Source: a virus
Length of the DNA stretch: 34,898 bases
Reading direction: 5' to 3' (one strand)
Virus record (IMG/VR): IMGVR_UViG_3300025873_000017
Location: 1 to 34,898 of that record
Under the pieces are notes generated by a model. That model was not told where the DNA came from, ran no database searches, and worked only from the letters and a program-made list of their open reading frames with translations. This document shows, one piece after another, positions 10,627 through 24,821 of this stretch. Numbering within the stretch: the stretch's first letter is position 1; the number at the start of each line of letters is the position of its first letter. The translations under genes and the position numbers were made by a program.

Positions 10627-11474
10627 TATACCTCCAAGATCCTTGCGAGACCACCATGAGCAAAATCAAGATCCTCTCTTCTAAAAAATGGGTCGTCTAT
10701 CTTTCTTCCCATACGATCGGTTCTTCGTAATAATTGTAGAGCGAAATTGTCGATAACTTCAGGCGTTCCTGCGCTTGGAAGTTGTTTAGCTGAAGCGTTG
10801 CCAAAATATTTTGCAAAAAGAGTAATAGGGTCTCCTTTAGTTCCGCCTCCGCCTTCTAAAAGCCATTTCAAATCTTGCTTGGACATAATTTCTCTAAGAG
10901 TCAGTCCTACGCCTTCCTTAGTCGCCGACATGTCTAAAAGTTTTAACATAGTCGCTCGTGCCGATGCAGTTTTTTCAGGAAGTTCAGCACCTTCAAAAAA
11001 TTTTAATCCTGGTTTGATATCAACCGATTCATCGATTGCTTTAGCCATGGTGCTTCCTGGTTGTGCTCTTCCATACATCTCAGGATTTTTAAATCCTAAA
11101 TCTTTAGATACTTTTAGGCCCCTGATCCCTGGAACCATGTCCGCTACGCTTGCCATCGGTAGAACCGGTGGATTATAAATTTTGTTAATACTTTCAAGAT
11201 TCAGGGTTAAAGCTCTAAGTTGAATAGCGTTTAATTTATTAGCGCTGGCAAAACCCATAGCATCTTCAACTGCTTCAATGATTGTTTCTCGTGGTCCCAG
11301 CTGCGTTTCGCTTGCAGACTCTATTCCTCGTAAAGGGCCCTGGAACAAGGGATTCTTAGTTGGGCCTTTTCCTAAAAAAGTAACATTCGTTCGAGTCCCC
11401 ATAAACCTTTGAGGATTGGCTCCAATATTTTGAGCCAATTTCATTAAATTTTTTAATATGAGTTGTCTAGCCAT
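10626..11474 (-). CDS. Hypothetical structural-cluster protein after terminase (282 aa)
   Basis: A soluble, mildly basic protein starting MARQLILKNLMKLAQNIGAN and ending with an FAHGGLARILEV motif; a C-terminal HGGLA motif is common in marine phage proteins at this location. It overlaps terL by 8 bases and the next gene by one base, so it belongs to the same operon. No enzyme motif is visible. It may be a head-completion or internal protein; not identified. Confidence 0.6.
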   Translation of the reverse strand: MARQLILKNLMKLAQNIGANPQRFMGTRTNVTFLGKGPTKNPLFQGPLRGIESASETQLGPRETIIEAVEDAMGFASANKLNAIQLRALTLNLESINKIYNPPVLPMASVADMVPGIRGLKVSKDLGFKNPEMYGRAQPGSTMAKAIDESVDIKPGLKFFEGAELPEKTASARATMLKLLDMSATKEGVGLTLREIMSKQDLKWLLEGGGGTKGDPITLFAKYFGNASAKQLPSAGTPEVIDNFALQLLRRTDRMGRKIDDPFFRREDLDFAHGGLARILEV

Positions 11475-12948
11475 AATAATTTAGTCCGGTTCTCTCAATT
11501 TTCTCTTCCTTATAGTCTTCAGGATGAGTTATGAACATTCCACCCCTTAAACGCATAATTGCTTGCGTTGTCGAGTCCACATAGTCATCATGATCACCAT
11601 GCGGGAATGCTGCACACTCTTCAACCACTTCTTGGGCAAAATGCTCATGCATAGGGGCCCAAATTTTACCCGCCTCAAAAAGCGGAGCGATTGAGTTCAC
11701 TCTAATGTGTTTATCATTTCCTTTTGACGGTGTATAGTTAATAACTGGGATTCCGATTTTTCTAAGCTCGTGAGTTAGGGGGATCCCTGATGCCTTGGCC
11801 TCGATTAAAACAATATCCGGACGATGGTGTATATATTCTTCATGAGCTAAACGTCTTAATTCTGGAAACTCATATCGACCTTTAAATGCATCAAGTAAAA
11901 TTGCATTTTGGCCGCTGCCTTCTTTCTCAAAAACTCCCCACGTTGTAATTGCAGAAAAGTCAGCTGTTTCTTTTTTCATAAATGCGGTGTCATAACTTTG
12001 AATAATGAAACTCAGTTTAGGAGGCTTCTCGCTTTTCCAATCTTTCCACCAGCTTCGTTTAATAAGGGCTCCTTCTTCAGCAGTTGGAGTTTGCATATAT
12101 TGAGCATTCCATTTACCAACGCTAATAGAAGCTTTTACAGATTCTAATTCATCTCTATTCCAATACTCCGGCCAAACAGGTTTGTCATTTGGCAAGATAG
12201 CGGGAAATTCGACTACTTCCCATTGGTCTCCTTTTACTTCTTTTTGAGCCTTGAGTAATGCACCCGTTAGATCTCTTGTCGACCAACGCGTCATAACTAA
12301 AATGATCCGGCCGCCTGGTTGAAGTCTTTGACGTGGACCTGATGTGTACCACTCATATGCTTTATCAAAAGAGTCTCTACTTAATAAATCTTTTTCTTTG
12401 TGAGGATCATCAATGATTAATAAGTCAGCTCCTCTTCCTGTCATGGCACCTCCAACACCAACCGCAAAGTACTCACCTCCTTGTGCCGTTTCCCATCGAC
12501 CTGCTGCCTTACTATCTTCTTGCAGCGTAGTTTCAAAAATTTCTTGATACTCCGGAGAATCGATGACATGCTTAGCTTTACGACCAAACCGTATAGCGAG
12601 TTCTGCTGTGTGGGTAGCTTGAATTATTTTTAAATCTGGATTCTTCCCAATCATCCAAGCGGGTAGATAATTAGAAGCAAATTCTGATTTCGTATGCCTA
12701 GGGGGCATATTCACAATAAGTCTTTTATTTTTACCATTAGCGATATCATTAAATTTTTTAGAAATAATTTTATGATGTTCACCACTAATAAACGCAGGCC
12801 AGATATATTTTATAAATTCTAAAAAATCTCCTTTAACTCTAGTTTGGGTCTCTAATTGATCTGCTTTTAAATAAGCTTTTAAATATGCTTTCTGTTCGTC
12901 TACTGGTAATTTTTTTATAAAATTTATGTCGTCGTTCATCTGAATCAT
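11467..12948 (-). CDS. terL: Terminase large subunit (493 aa)
   Basis: This is the packaging motor ATPase with a C-terminal nuclease. The ATPase shows an adapted Walker A MPPRHTKSE (81-89), Walker B LLIIDDP (176-182) and the coupling motif MTRW (219-222). The RNase H-like nuclease shows acidic residues Asp320 (QSYDTAF), Glu383 (VLIEAKASG) and Asp454/455/458 (GDHDDYVDS). Full length for the family. ATGs at codons 1 and 4 are both possible; neither has a strong ribosome-binding site. It heads the morphogenesis operon, while the small subunit lies 5 kb away on the other strand. Confidence 0.96.
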   Translation of the reverse strand: MIQMNDDINFIKKLPVDEQKAYLKAYLKADQLETQTRVKGDFLEFIKYIWPAFISGEHHKIISKKFNDIANGKNKRLIVNMPPRHTKSEFASNYLPAWMIGKNPDLKIIQATHTAELAIRFGRKAKHVIDSPEYQEIFETTLQEDSKAAGRWETAQGGEYFAVGVGGAMTGRGADLLIIDDPHKEKDLLSRDSFDKAYEWYTSGPRQRLQPGGRIILVMTRWSTRDLTGALLKAQKEVKGDQWEVVEFPAILPNDKPVWPEYWNRDELESVKASISVGKWNAQYMQTPTAEEGALIKRSWWKDWKSEKPPKLSFIIQSYDTAFMKKETADFSAITTWGVFEKEGSGQNAILLDAFKGRYEFPELRRLAHEEYIHHRPDIVLIEAKASGIPLTHELRKIGIPVINYTPSKGNDKHIRVNSIAPLFEAGKIWAPMHEHFAQEVVEECAAFPHGDHDDYVDSTTQAIMRLRGGMFITHPEDYKEEKIERTGLNYYG

Positions 12949-13001: not shown

Positions 13002-13130
13002 TGGGACCCCTATTTTCTTGTTTAAGGGGGGTGGGCCCTCCCTTAAAATTCTGAGCTATGCAGAAACTGGGACCCCTCGGGCTCGGGTGGGCCCGCCCGA
13101 GCCCGGGATTCGGGTGGGCCCGCCCCGAAT
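13002..13130. repeat. Array of GC-rich hairpins upstream of terL
   Basis: The 284-base gap between terL and the next gene holds no convincing gene. It has three strong inverted repeats in an AT-rich genome: 13021-13047 (TTTAAGGG with CCCTTAAA), 13079-13104 (GGGCTCGGG with CCCGAGCCC) and 13108-13130 (ATTCGGG with CCCGAAT). Each has GTGGGCCC in its middle. A direct repeat TGGGACCCCT occurs at 13002-13011 and 13068-13077. The same core recurs at 15540, 16346 and 33706-33733. It may terminate transcription, protect terL mRNA or be a protein-binding or packaging site. Confidence 0.7.
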
Positions 13131-13200
13131 AGCACAACCTCACGAGGTATGCAATAATAACATGGGATATTATAAGATTTAGCTTGACAGGATATTAGAA

Positions 13201-13619: not shown

Positions 13620-13858
13620 GAAGTTAAAGTTGGGTTGTCATTTATTTCCCACTCTTTACTTGCACATCTATATTGATTCTTGCCATTGTCTATTTCTTCA
13701 GTAGCTTGAATATCAACATAAACTTTATAAGGATAACCATGTTTTTTATGCGTTCCCTCATAACACTCATTATCAAGAGTTGCTTTGCGTTCAATTATGC
13801 AACCATGTTTAGTTGCATAATATTTAATCCAAAAGATAGATTTAGAAAGTGATGTCAT
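13616..13858 (-). CDS. Small hypothetical protein (80 aa)
   Basis: The start at 13858 (MTSLSKSIFWIKYYATKHGC) was chosen because GAGGAAAC lies just before it; a longer frame reaches 13921 but has no good site. The protein has three cysteines and many aromatic residues and no membrane span. It overlaps the upstream gene by 17 bases and the downstream gene by 4 (ATGA). Function unknown. Confidence 0.6.
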   Translation of the reverse strand: MTSLSKSIFWIKYYATKHGCIIERKATLDNECYEGTHKKHGYPYKVYVDIQATEEIDNGKNQYRCASKEWEINDNPTLTS

Positions 13859-14057: not shown

Positions 14058-14095
14058 CATGGGATAATATTACATTATCCCATGCCTAAAGTCAA
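14058..14095 (-). promoter_or_regulatory. Promoter with palindromic operator for the 14033-13233 operon
   Basis: On the minus strand, TTGACT (14090-14095) and TAATAT (14067-14072) are separated by exactly 17 bases. An inverted repeat with 11-base arms, CATGGGATAAT at 14058-14068 and ATTATCCCATG at 14074-14084, covers the -10 box and most of the spacer. A dimeric repressor bound there would block RNA polymerase. The AAAGGAG site and ATG follow at 14033. Confidence 0.75.
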
Positions 14096-15115: not shown

Positions 15116-15156
15116 ACAATAGACTACTTGACAATGGTTGTCAATAGGATTATATA
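15116..15156. promoter_or_regulatory. Back-to-back divergent promoters sharing a -35 palindrome
   Basis: TTGACAA (15128-15134) and TTGTCAA (15138-15144) form a perfect palindrome with a TGG centre. Read leftward, TTGACA (15139-15144), 17 bases and TATTGT (15116-15121) make the promoter for the 329-residue gene. Read rightward, TTGACA (15128-15133), 17 bases and TATATA (15151-15156) make a plus-strand promoter. One bound protein or polymerase would exclude the other, so this looks like a two-way switch. Confidence 0.7.
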
Positions 15157-15177
15157 AGATATTAATTCTTGAAGATA

Positions 15178-15533: not shown

Positions 15534-15553
15534 AGCAGGGTGGGCCCGCCCAC
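15534..15553. repeat. GTGGGCCCGCCC repeat copy
   Basis: CAAGCAGGGTGGGCCCGCCCA-type sequence; GTGGGC at 15540-15545 pairs with GCCCAC at 15548-15553. The copy at 16339-16358 has the same CAAGC lead-in. Both lie 30 to 45 bases before a plus-strand promoter, so they may insulate the promoter from upstream transcription or bind a regulator. Confidence 0.65.
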
Positions 15554-15596: not shown

Positions 15597-15625
15597 TTGA
15601 CTTGTCAGCTGCTCTGGGATATACT
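15597..15625 (+). promoter_or_regulatory. Sigma70-like promoter with GGGA/CTGGGA repeats
   Basis: TTGACT (15597-15602), 17 bases, TATACT (15620-15625). CTGGGA occurs at 15614-15619 and again at 15624-15629, ten bases apart, so both face the same side of the helix and flank the -10 box. Start of transcription is expected near 15632; AAAGGAAA and the ATG at 15648 follow. Confidence 0.8.
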
Positions 15626-15647
15626 GGGATCTTAACGAAAGGAAAAA

Positions 15648-16214
15648 ATGTCAACAAGAAGTAATATAGCAATAGAAGACCCAAAGACTAAAAAAGTAAA
15701 AGTTATATATGTTCACAGTGATGGCTATCCATACGGAATTGGTTCAATTCTTATGGATCATTATCATAAGCGCGAAGTTGCGGAACTATTATTTAATCAG
15801 GGTGACGCCAGCTACTTAGGCGATACTCTAGATGAGTGTAGTTTTTACGGTCGCGACTGGGATAGGAAGGAAGACCCAGCCAAAGTGTACAGAGATGAGT
15901 GGATGTATATGCATGATATGCGCGGAGATATGCACATTGAATATATTTATATATTTAAAGATAATAGATGGCATGTATCAACTCAAAAAATGTATACAAC
16001 TAAAGACGGTTATGATGGTGGGAAATTTTGGTATCATACCAAGTTTGAGCCACTAGCATTGAACAAAGAATATATTAAACACAATGGCAAGCACGAGAAG
16101 CACGCCGAGGTCAAAATGATTTCAGGCTTGACTAAAATGCTTACTAAGAATTTTGGACAGGACAATATCACGGTCCAGAGTTTCACCCAAGGGCTACCAA
16201 AGAAATCTAATTAA
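15648..16214 (+). CDS. MSTRSNIAI-family hypothetical phage protein (188 aa)
   Basis: Starts MSTRSNIAIEDPKTKKVKVI and contains VHSDGYPYGIGSILMDHY, then alternating aromatic-rich strands. Proteins beginning MSTRS-IxI with the HxDGYP segment are widespread in phages of diverse hosts and have no proven function. Length is typical. It has its own promoter and a good AAAGG site; no start/stop overlap with neighbours, so it is an independently controlled, likely early gene. Confidence 0.8.
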   Translation: MSTRSNIAIEDPKTKKVKVIYVHSDGYPYGIGSILMDHYHKREVAELLFNQGDASYLGDTLDECSFYGRDWDRKEDPAKVYRDEWMYMHDMRGDMHIEYIYIFKDNRWHVSTQKMYTTKDGYDGGKFWYHTKFEPLALNKEYIKHNGKHEKHAEVKMISGLTKMLTKNFGQDNITVQSFTQGLPKKSN

Positions 16215-16236
16215 TGTTTAAAACTATAGCCTGGAA

Positions 16237-16260
16237 GACTGGCCCCACCCGGGGCCGGTC
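16237..16260 (+). terminator. Strong hairpin after the 188-residue gene
   Basis: GACTGGCCCC (16237-16246) pairs with GGGGCCGGTC (16251-16260), one G-T pair, loop ACCC, 23 bases after the stop of the MSTRSNIAI-family gene. The following bases are GAAAAAAC, not a T-run, so it may be a mRNA 3'-end stabiliser or a weak terminator rather than a classical one. Confidence 0.5.
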
Positions 16261-16338
16261 GAAAAAACCCAATAGAAAAAAAATGTTAAAGCTCCACGAT
16301 GCCTGGGCGAAAAAAAATGGGTACAGGGTACAAGCTCC

Positions 16339-16358
16339 CAAGCGGGTGGGCCCGCCCA
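16339..16358. repeat. GTGGGCCCGCCC repeat copy
   Basis: CAAGCGGGTGGGCCCGCCCA (16339-16358) repeats the element at 15534 almost exactly, including the CAAGC lead-in. It ends 28 bases before the next promoter (-35 at 16387). The longer reading frame that runs through here from 16299 is not considered coding. Confidence 0.65.
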
Positions 16359-16386
16359 TTAAAGAATCAGGGTCCAAGCAGCAGGG

Positions 16387-16415
16387 TTGACAGCGTCTGG
16401 GCTCTGGGATATACT
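16387..16415 (+). promoter_or_regulatory. Sigma70-like promoter with CTGGGA repeats
   Basis: TTGACA (16387-16392), 17 bases, TATACT (16410-16415). CTGGGA at 16404-16409 and 16414-16419, ten bases apart, as in the promoter at 15597. Drives the 80-residue gene at 16437. Confidence 0.82.
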
Positions 16416-16436
16416 GGGAGTAACAAAAGGATAATT

Positions 16437-16679
16437 ATGATTGAATATAAAGATCTAAAGAAAAAAGACGAAGTAAGGACCACACAGCTGGGCACCCCGG
16501 TGACTGGCAAGCTGTTGGAGTCTCCAAAGCAGGGCCGCGGGCTCAAGAGAGCTATCCTGATCCAGAGCAATGGCTCAGAGATCGGATTTTTTGACGAAGC
16601 AGGATCCGTCTATGCTCATCAGGTGACTGAAGTGCGCAGAGATGGCGACTGGCAACAGGTGAAGGGACAACCACAATAA
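16437..16679 (+). CDS. Small hypothetical protein (80 aa)
   Basis: The ATG at 16437 has AAAGGATAA upstream and lies 22 bases after the -10 box; the longer frame from 16299 would have to start before the promoter and is rejected. The protein MIEYKDLKKKDEVRTTQLGT looks like a small beta-barrel-type domain (GKLLESPKQGRG, AILIQSNGSEIGFFDEAGSV), with basic patches. It may bind nucleic acid or protein; no family recognised. Base composition is GC-richer than most of the window. Confidence 0.65.
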   Translation: MIEYKDLKKKDEVRTTQLGTPVTGKLLESPKQGRGLKRAILIQSNGSEIGFFDEAGSVYAHQVTEVRRDGDWQQVKGQPQ

Positions 16680-16711
16680 AAATAAGGGCTCAAGCCTGCA
16701 AGCTCCCAAGC

Positions 16712-16740
16712 TTGACAGGCTGCAAGCTCTAGGATATTCT
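16712..16740 (+). promoter_or_regulatory. Promoter of the Gp88-like gene; predicted leaderless transcript
   Basis: TTGACA (16712-16717), 17 bases, TATTCT (16735-16740). CTAGGA occurs at 16729-16734 and 16739-16744, again ten bases apart. The ATG begins at 16748, only 7 bases after the -10 box, so transcription should start at or next to the start codon; no ribosome-binding site exists upstream. Confidence 0.75.
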
Positions 16741-16747
16741 AGGACAT

Positions 16748-17344
16748 ATGAATAAAAAAGAAGCAATCAAAATAACTGGCGGGCTGTCGAAGCCTTCCAA
16801 GATGCCGGGGCCAGCGTTTAACCTGCCAGCTCAGGCATGCATTACAGGGTCCAAGCTGGTCAAGATCCCGGGCTCGGTATGCTCAGGCTGTTACGCTCTT
16901 AAGGGCCGGTATAGATTCCCGAATGTGAAGGAAGCGTTAACGCGTCGACTGGCTGGCCTAACACATCCTGAATGGATTCCCGCTATGGTTGTATTAATTG
17001 ATCAGACTCCATGGTTCAGATGGCATGACTCAGGGGACCTGCAAGGCGTCCAGCATTTAAAAAATATTTTTGAAGTGTGCAAGCTCACGCCAGACACACA
17101 GCACTGGCTGCCAACTAGAGAGGCCAAATTCCTGCCACTAAGTACTGACAGTATACCAAAAAATTTGATTATTAGATTATCAGGACACAAAATAGATAAA
17201 CCCGCGGCCAGCTTCTGGAGATGGACCAGCACTGTGGTGACTGATGGCAAGAGCTGCCCGGCCAAGGAACAAGGCAACGAATGCAAAGATTGCCGCGCAT
17301 GCTGGGACCGGAGTACAGCCAACATCGCATATGGACTACACTAA
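16748..17344 (+). CDS. Gp88-family cysteine-rich phage protein (198 aa)
   Basis: Matches the phage Gene product 88 family (PF17338). Signs are FNLPAQACITGSKLVKIPGS followed by VCSGCYALKGRYRFPNV, the WFRWHDSGDLQ motif, HWLPTREAKF, and a C-terminal cysteine cluster (CPAKEQGNECKDCRACWD). Seven or so cysteines in two clusters suggest a metal or iron-sulfur site. Biochemical role is unknown. It has its own promoter and should be translated from a leaderless message. Its stop overlaps the stop of the convergent nuclease gene by 4 bases. GC content is visibly higher than the surrounding genome, hinting at separate acquisition. Confidence 0.85.
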   Translation: MNKKEAIKITGGLSKPSKMPGPAFNLPAQACITGSKLVKIPGSVCSGCYALKGRYRFPNVKEALTRRLAGLTHPEWIPAMVVLIDQTPWFRWHDSGDLQGVQHLKNIFEVCKLTPDTQHWLPTREAKFLPLSTDSIPKNLIIRLSGHKIDKPAASFWRWTSTVVTDGKSCPAKEQGNECKDCRACWDRSTANIAYGLH

Positions 17345-17715
17345 ATTTTTTCTAGGAACTTGGAACAGGAAGTGAGACCACAAGCTAAGGGTTCAAGCTT
17401 CAATCCGGAGTCAACAAGCTCAAGGATCCGGGAGCCAGGGTACAAGCGCACAAGCTGGTCCAGGGCACAAGCAACCAGGACAAAAGTATTTTTTTTATGC
17501 TTCATGTGGAAAGATATTTGGTGCGGGGAACAGCGCACAAAATTAGGGTTTTTAAGGGTGGTTGATTTTAATTCTACTGTAAAAAAGGTCCCACGAGAAG
17601 AGTAGCCCAAAAGATCAGGAGTACCAAATAAAGCCCAGTTTTCAAGCCTCGTCCACGATATGGAGGGAGTCGCATTTTTTAATTTCTTCCAAAGTTGTCT
17701 TTCTCTCAGGGCCAT
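17341..17715 (-). CDS. VRR-NUC-like PD-(D/E)XK nuclease (124 aa)
   Basis: Catalytic pattern: Glu25 in RLENW, PD at 33-34 (FGTPDLLGY), then TVELKS with Glu48 and Lys50, the PD...ExK signature. SPHQISFHMKH and FVLVACA follow, the usual VRR-NUC or Holliday-junction-resolvase-like C-terminal part. Length is normal for stand-alone phage VRR-NUC proteins, which likely cut branched DNA during replication or packaging. It is convergent with the Gp88-like gene (4-base overlap of stops). The last 20 or so residues are in GC-richer, CAAGC-rich DNA and are not conserved in type. Confidence 0.75.
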   Translation of the reverse strand: MALRERQLWKKLKNATPSISWTRLENWALFGTPDLLGYSSRGTFFTVELKSTTLKNPNFVRCSPHQISFHMKHKKNTFVLVACALDQLVRLYPGSRILELVDSGLKLEPLACGLTSCSKFLEKI

Positions 17716-22796: not shown

Positions 22797-22947
22797 TAAT
22801 TTCTCCTCTTGAATCACACATAGGACATTGTACTACTTTGTCCAGTGGATTATCTACACTTTCTTTAACTGTAAAATAACCATTTCCCTTACAACGTGGG
22901 CAAATGGTAGATTTACTTTTGCTTATCTTTAGTTCTGTCTTTTCCAT
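22741..22947 (-). CDS. DnaJ-type zinc-finger protein (68 aa)
   Basis: Two CxxCxGxG-like motifs, CPRCKGNGYF (16-25) and CPMCDSRGEI (40-49), form the cross-brace zinc site of DnaJ cysteine-rich domains. No J-domain is present. Stand-alone proteins of this type occur in phages. It may bind unfolded protein or nucleic acid. Tail is acidic. It overlaps the preceding gene by 35 bases and the next by 56. Confidence 0.7.
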   Translation of the reverse strand: MEKTELKISKSKSTICPRCKGNGYFTVKESVDNPLDKVVQCPMCDSRGEINDPNDDIIITSSGVHKLQ

Positions 22948-23098
22948 TTAACCTTTGCATTTCTTTATTAACTAAAATGTTAATAGTTCCACTACGACTT
23001 TGAACAATGTGTGGAGTTATAATTTTGCGAATCTTATCTAAGTTTTGATAAGTATCTTTGGTTAACGAAACATTTTTATATCGACTAATGTCAGTCAT
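22913..23098 (-). CDS. Putative ribbon-helix-helix DNA-binding protein (61 aa)
   Basis: KNVSLTKDTYQNLDKIRKII matches a beta-strand-plus-helix start and SGTINILVNKEMQRLNGK a second helix, the usual ribbon-helix-helix layout of small repressors. It is the first gene after the promoter at 23135-23163 and could regulate it. RBS AAGAGGT lies before the ATG. RHH assignment is by pattern and moderate. Confidence 0.55.
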   Translation of the reverse strand: MTDISRYKNVSLTKDTYQNLDKIRKIITPHIVQSRSGTINILVNKEMQRLNGKDRTKDKQK

Positions 23099-23134
23099 GT
23101 GTTATACCTCTTTCTGTTGGTTTCATATATATGT

Positions 23135-23163
23135 GATATATCCCATAATATAATAGCTGTCAA
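23135..23163 (-). promoter_or_regulatory. Sigma70-like promoter of the 23098 operon
   Basis: On the minus strand, TTGACA (23158-23163), 17 bases, TATATC (23135-23140). The spacer ends GGGA, the same feature as in the plus-strand promoters at 15597 and 16387. It drives the operon beginning at 23098. Transcription start is expected near 23128. Confidence 0.78.
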
Positions 23164-24176: not shown

Positions 24177-24613
24177 TAGAGATTATAAAGTCTAGGCCTT
24201 CCTCCTTTTATTCCTCGTAAAAACATTGTTGAATCTTTTTTTCTAGGTCTTCCCCGTCCCCTGGTTCCTGCTCCCCGGTAATGACTGCGATGTTGTTTAG
24301 GAGGTTGTGTAGTTTCTGCTACATAAAGACGTCCTCCATTACGAACCATTGACATATGAGATTCTCTTCTTTTGATAGGAAGTTCCATTACTCTATGCAC
24401 ATACTCAGGGTCACGACCTGCATACCCACACACGGTTCTGAAATTAAACCCCCCTGACTTAAACCATTCAATAGCCTGAAGAGACTCTCTCCAGTCTGAA
24501 GCGTAAATTGCGTCATGAGCTGCCTTACTTAAAACAGCAACCCACAAGTCATGCTCTGAAGTTCCACTTTCGTTTATTTCAGGTAGACTTTTCTGAGCGT
24601 ATATCCCCTTCAT
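24176..24613 (-). CDS. Hypothetical DNA-binding-like protein with AT-hook (145 aa)
   Basis: The N-terminal half, EHDLWVAVLSKAAHDAIYAS to GFNFRTVCGYAGRDPEYVHR, recurs as a short domain in phages, probably helix-turn-helix. The tail has GRGRPRKK, a core AT-hook motif, and GGRPRLYNL. Minor-groove binding of AT-rich phage DNA is plausible. Its stop overlaps the oxygenase start by one base. Confidence 0.65.
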   Translation of the reverse strand: MKGIYAQKSLPEINESGTSEHDLWVAVLSKAAHDAIYASDWRESLQAIEWFKSGGFNFRTVCGYAGRDPEYVHRVMELPIKRRESHMSMVRNGGRLYVAETTQPPKQHRSHYRGAGTRGRGRPRKKDSTMFLRGIKGGRPRLYNL

Positions 24614-24782
24614 TGTGACTTTTGTTTCCCCATTTAATTATTCTTTCTGCGTTCAACGCGCTTATTGTTATATCAACACCAAATCTTTTCCATGACTTAG
24701 ACATACTGTTAAGTTCTAAAAGCAAAGTAGACCATTGTCTTTGGCTGATGTGATCTGTGGTTAATGTTATCTTTCTACTCAT
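24579..24782 (-). CDS. Small hypothetical protein, leaderless start (67 aa)
   Basis: MSRKITLTTDHISQRQWSTL then MSKSWKRFGVDITISALNA. Short proteins with this TxxHISxxQWS...LLLELN pattern recur in marine phages. The promoter's -10 box ends 10 bases before the ATG and there is no ribosome-binding site. It overlaps the next gene by 35 bases. Function unknown. Confidence 0.65.
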   Translation of the reverse strand: MSRKITLTTDHISQRQWSTLLLELNSMSKSWKRFGVDITISALNAERIIKWGNKSHNEGDIRSEKST

Positions 24783-24792
24783 TCTAAAAAGT

Positions 24793-24821
24793 AGTATAAG
24801 AAATTATAGGATAATTGTCAA
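24793..24821 (-). promoter_or_regulatory. Promoter for the 24782 gene; near-leaderless transcript
   Basis: TTGACA (24816-24821), 17 bases, TATACT (24793-24798) on the minus strand, a near-consensus match. Expected transcript start near 24786 leaves about 3 untranslated bases before the ATG at 24782. Confidence 0.8.

Follow-up and report, generated by a model that had tools for sequence, protein, structure and literature searches.

A conserved promoter element in HTVC023P-type pelagiphages and a candidate RHH-like regulator

Genomic context

The window, by which we mean the whole 34,898-nt stretch of viral DNA analysed (IMG/VR record IMGVR_UViG_3300025873_000017), encodes a terminase sharing 63-66% identity with the terminases of Pelagibacter phage HTVC027P and phage 023Pt_psg01, and the genes flanking the terminase are arranged as in HTVC027P, but in reverse. 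These two features together identify the window as a fragment of an HTVC023P/HTVC027P-type pelagiphage with a SAR11 host. SAR11 are the commonest bacteria of the ocean, and HTVC023P-type phages have been described as widespread pelagiphages (PMC9599517).

Between terL (11467-12948, - strand) and the replication genes lies an island of genes on the + strand, opposite to nearly all other genes. These comprise a phrog_1987-type gene (15648-16214), an 80-aa gene starting at 16437, a GP88-family gene (16748-17344) and, further on, a terminase-small-subunit-like gene. The island has a G+C content of 48-50% (16201-17400) against ~37% around it, and tandem CAAGC arrays with a period of 7-8 precede the island promoters (16331, 16691 and 16699; in HTVC027P, L360, at 16506-16620, 17396-17417 and 17719). 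G+C-rich palindromes, possible terminators or insulators, occur upstream of the first two island promoters (GTGGGCCCGCCCA, at 15540 and 16346) and near the terL leader (GGGCCCGCCC, at 13089 and 13116). Tandem repeats of ~32 bp (CAAATCTTGAGAATACATACCGAAAATTTTTTG) are found upstream of gp22 in HTVC023P (L362, 12566).

Promoters carrying the repeat

Three of the island genes are preceded by + strand promoters of closely similar design. P1, before the phrog_1987-type gene, spans 15597-15629 and consists of TTGACT, a 17-nt spacer and TATACT (15620-15625), with CTGGGA at 15614-15619 and 15624-15629 (RGGAT at 15616 and 15626). P2, before the 80-aa gene, spans 16387-16419 (TTGACA, N17, TATACT) and carries CTGGGA at 16404-16409 and 16414-16419 and an additional CTGGG at 16397. 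P3, before the GP88-family gene, spans 16712-16744 (TTGACA, N17, TATTCT) and carries CTAGGA at 16729-16734 and 16739-16744. The GP88 ATG follows the P3 -10 element by only 7 nt (16735-16748), and the corresponding distance is 5-9 nt in 16 relatives, from which we infer that a leaderless or near-leaderless GP88 mRNA is conserved.

An earlier note on this DNA had described these promoters as bearing CTGGGA or CTAGGA units one helix turn apart, and a search of the whole window bears this out. The pattern CTNGGA-N4-CTNGGA, CTNGGANNNNCTNGGA, has exactly three matches (15614-15629, 16404-16419 and 16729-16744, all on the + strand), compared with an expectation of 0.06, and three matches were reached in none of 100 shuffles. 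Tolerating one mismatch added a single chance-level site in the window. All three copies straddle the -10 element of a TTGACW-N17-TATNCT promoter (hexamers TTGACT or TTGACA with TATACT, TATACT and TATTCT), and hexamers resembling TTGACA and TATAAT at a spacing of 16-18 bp, as in host sigma-70-type promoters, are present at P1-P3 and in relatives.

The unit is also found reversed and inverted at other promoters. Both further sites named in the earlier note were recovered: a - strand promoter at 14058-14095 (TTGACT, 14095-14090) contains the palindrome CATGGGATAATATTACATTATCCCATG at 14058-14084, composed of CATGGGATAAT-N5-ATTATCCCATG with perfect 11-bp arms, and the - strand promoter of a ribbon-helix-helix (RHH)-like gene (23132-23163) carries, after TTGACA at 23163-23158, an imperfect inverted unit, TATGGGATATATCACA (23147-23132). 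A 10-bp direct pair, ATCTTATAATATCCC, surrounds a TATAAT at 13164-13178 on the - strand, ~220 nt upstream of terL, and the - strand promoter (TTGACA-N17-TATACT, 24808-24821) of a 67-aa gene (24579-24782) has one unit, ATCCT, within its spacer. Another + strand promoter with a 10-bp direct pair, TTGACAATGGTTGTCAATAGGATTATATAAGAT (15128-15160; AGGAT at 15146, AAGAT at 15156), recurs in relatives. It is divergent from a - strand TTGACA at 15144 and has no obvious ORF directly downstream; its product is possibly a small RNA.

Recognition unit and geometry

In the downstream unit, CT is the last two bases of the -10 hexamer, and the C varies among relatives, so the unit itself is better written TRGGAT(A). 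The unit is present at 155 of 289 non-redundant promoter-like sites, where 25.5 would be expected, and at 42 of them it occurs at least twice, against an expectation of 0.9. In a spacing scan of non-redundant TTGACW sites, the direct pair RGGAT-N5-RRGAT, with its units 10 bp apart, occurred 40 times, and any other spacing was represented at most five times. For inverted pairs the spacing peaked at N1-2 and again, roughly one helix turn further, at N11-13. The two units of P1-P3 are of the same variant within each promoter, as the earlier note implied; as a rule this does not hold, since across 84 promoters the R base of the upstream unit shows no correlation with that of the downstream one (Fisher p=0.49).

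The position of the direct pair relative to the -35 element is variable. The pair stands at offset 8 after TTGACW in 13 cases and at offset 12-13 in 19, with ~0.01 expected at each and other offsets rare; the 12-13 offset is the arrangement of P1-P3, with the -10 between the units, and at offset 8 the downstream unit overlaps the -10. The two main registers thus differ by 5 bp while the spacing within the pair is constant. As both offsets strongly exceed expectation, the pair is not tied to the register of RNA polymerase. A polymerase contact would stay fixed to the -10, whereas the pair shifts by half a turn with its own spacing preserved, and this independence, together with the inverted forms, favors an operator over a sigma-factor contact.

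Conservation and specificity

In many contigs the block recurs before homologues of GP88 (80 loci) and of the phrog_1987-type gene (67 loci), with varying spacers and flanks. A broad scan of the collection with CTNGGATATACTNGGA, whose matches are mostly chance, found TTGAC 17-18 nt before the unit in 19 of the 80 contigs examined; all 19 read CTGGGATATACTGGGA, and these promoters precede several different genes. Two comparisons on which the earlier note had staked its proposal came out in its favor. The repeat concentrates at promoters, judged on promoter-like sites of relatives, and it is retained in relatives sharing the genes, namely before homologues of the GP88, 15648 and RHH-like genes. 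It is a real, conserved promoter element of HTVC023P-type pelagiphages.

The element is also restricted to this phage group. In records with an RHH-like gene, RGGAT or ATCCY lies near the -10 in 59 of 86 distinct TTGACA promoters, compared with 10% of random 33-mers, and the same test gave 3 of 14 control promoters of the TTGACA-N17-TATNNT type in unrelated pelagiphages (HTVC033P and HTVC103P; HTVC010P yielded no promoter-like sites under the filter). Conserved TTGACA-TATGAT matches in SAR11 genomes had been considered as a host promoter control and were dropped; because several resembled coding sequence, pelagiphages without the RHH-like gene were taken instead. The density of RGGAT-N5-RRGAT is ~82 per Mb in records with an RHH-like gene (33 in 402 kb); three unrelated pelagiphages, 142 kb together, have a single occurrence, and six SAR11 genomes have 11 per Mb (72 in 6.4 Mb). 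HTVC033P and HTVC010P have the same host strain as HTVC027P and lack the enrichment, which makes it unlikely that host polymerase needs the element, a conclusion that comes mainly from HTVC033P.

A candidate regulator

The earlier note had proposed a common regulator of several operons and offered two candidates. The shared recognition element on which that proposal depends is well supported, and the candidates fared differently. The 63-aa protein at 13842 was rejected, as it is present in only one of 24 records, the window itself, and in no relative searched. The RHH-like protein of 61 aa encoded at 22913-23098 (- strand) was retained and is the best candidate. It belongs to a conserved family of 54-73 aa that is carried by all four HTVC023P-type genomes examined and by none of three unrelated pelagiphages. 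Homologues of the window protein occupy the corresponding syntenic position in both HTVC027P and 023Pt_psg01, HTVC023P has a divergent one, and many are found in contigs. In relatives the gene has 81 distinct promoters, of which 79 contain the unit (71 with a strict unit in place, eight with a shifted or shorter one) and two (L565 and L587) do not.

Assignment to the RHH class derives from the sequence pattern, a near-cut-off match of an orthologue and weak structural neighbors. The window protein had no match among RHH sequence families, and the family is not in Pfam, PHROGs or NCBIfam. The 023Pt_psg01 orthologue, which the RHH-like family profile recovers at E=1.4e-6, matched PF01402 at E=0.0023 and 18.3 bits, just under the cut-off of 20.5. 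An hhalign comparison with CopG and Arc sequences gave no support. The predicted monomer has helices at residues 14-27 and 35-50 and no strand; a Foldseek search with this model returned no significant match, and the six best rows of VIA-align were pCXC100 ParB, TraM, Rv0298, MazE6, 1y9b and Arc, with Z of only 3.1-4.1. All six are RHH proteins.

Several observations count against an operator for this protein or leave it without added weight. The strict unit is confined to 54-69% of the promoter-like sites of these phages, and one and the same RHH-like protein is found with a CCC and with a CCT site (L572/L573). The 10-bp pair is absent from HTVC023P despite its divergent RHH-like protein. The first contigs seemed to show a strict link between the RHH-like sequence and whether the unit has G or A, but in a larger set this link was weak and the idea was set aside; between the unit and the site at the RHH-like gene itself (28/81 against 57/97 G) the G/A choice covaried only weakly, with phylogeny not removed (rho 0.26, p=0.04).

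Proposed mechanism and alternatives

On balance we favor, with some confidence, the reading that the repeats are operators of a phage-encoded RHH-like regulator. The promoters would be ordinary host sigma-70-type promoters, TTGACW-N17-TANNNT, on which a phage protein, most likely that encoded at 22913-23098, would recognize TRGGAT(A). In the promoters of the + strand island, the 10-bp spacing of two units would place two protomers or dimers side by side on one helix face over the -10, and other promoters would use the same unit as an inverted repeat. With an imperfect inverted site at its own gene, the regulator would also control itself. A protein bound at these sites would lie over the -10 and start region and hence be in competition with host RNA polymerase, and the expected outcome is transcription early in infection followed by shut-off once the protein accumulates. 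That the sites are bound, which protein binds them and that the effect is repression rather than activation are what we infer from the sequence comparisons.

Published expression data bear on the timing. HTVC027P lacks an RNA polymerase and depends on that of the host, and its early genes are all of unknown function, with no regulator named (PMC12753301). In RNA-seq of HTVC027P on HTCC1062, gp33 and gp34 form an extra early-to-middle cluster, high at 6-9 h and separate from the early, middle and late clusters (PMC12753301). The gp34 promoter, AGGATAGTATAGGATA, has the same 10-bp pair, and that of gp33, the GP88 homologue, has AGGAT. This timing fits timed control through the units, and a distinct cluster would also suit an activator or another cause. 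The description of the targets as early operons was only partly right: the genes behind direct-repeat promoters in HTVC027P peak early to middle (PMC12753301), and a unit also lies upstream of terL.

A broader form of the operator reading, which we consider rather unlikely, holds that a new RHH family governs most HTVC023P-type promoters through one half-site whose arrangements are interchangeable, whether as direct pairs in registers differing by 5 bp or inverted over one or two turns, with the arrangement and not the sequence setting the timing class of each gene. It is similarly doubtful that the direct repeats and the palindromes serve different regulators, for example an island protein and another for the - strand promoters, or that a host DNA-binding protein is responsible. 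Half-site spacing does differ between gene classes, and each phage has more than one small unknown gene able to encode a regulator, but the half-site is identical in all classes, the RHH-like gene alone of the two candidates tested tracks the group, and the enrichment is missing from the host and from unrelated pelagiphages.

GGGA at -6 to -3 is a discriminator known from sigma-70 work. The downstream GGGA might accordingly contact sigma region 1.2 and the upstream GGGA act as an extended -10 contact, making these strong host promoters with no phage regulator. The downstream RGGA of P1-P3 lies exactly at -6 to -3, and some GP88 promoters have TATTAT-AGGAT with no upstream unit. We nevertheless regard this explanation as unlikely: the 10-bp spacing is kept in differing -35 registers and the pair is also reversed and inverted, pelagiphages without the RHH-like gene, including HTVC033P on the same host strain, have the unit at just 3 of 14 control promoters, and SAR11 genomes show no comparable density. 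Finally, P1 and P2 have the 18-mer CTCTGGGATATACTGGGA in common, base for base, and the hairpin GTGGGCCCGCCCA lies upstream of each, as recent copies of one cassette recombined along with the island genes would, but an origin of the likeness in ancestry and not regulation is very improbable because the spacers and flanks of P1-P3 differ, relatives keep the unit while its surroundings diverge, and inverted units stand at unrelated genes.

If the operator reading is right, having a specific operator and candidate gene would open the temporal control of such an infection to direct test, and regulated genes in uncultured contigs could be recognized by the signature of the direct pair.

Comparison with known systems

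The closest parallels for the candidate are the RHH repressors Arc, Mnt, CopG and plasmid omega, which it resembles in its small size (54-73 aa), its beta-strand/helix/helix sequence pattern, the presence of a site in its own promoter and half-sites repeated about one helix turn apart. Plasmid omega accepts direct or inverted half-sites. The candidate differs in belonging to a family outside Pfam, PHROGs and NCBIfam and in its putative unit, TRGGAT(A), and the sites here form part of host-type -10 regions in many promoters. Apl of phage 186 likewise has direct repeats one helix turn apart (PMC7498355), comparable with the 40 pairs at 10 bp found here. However, Apl is an excisionase-type recombination directionality factor whose sites form an array between pR and pL, whereas the putative regulator here looks RHH-like and the pairs lie on the -10. 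The CtrA sites of Alphaproteobacteria phages are similarly short repeated sites concentrated at phage promoters, but CtrA comes from the host and has the site TTAA-N7-TTAA (PMC9437464).
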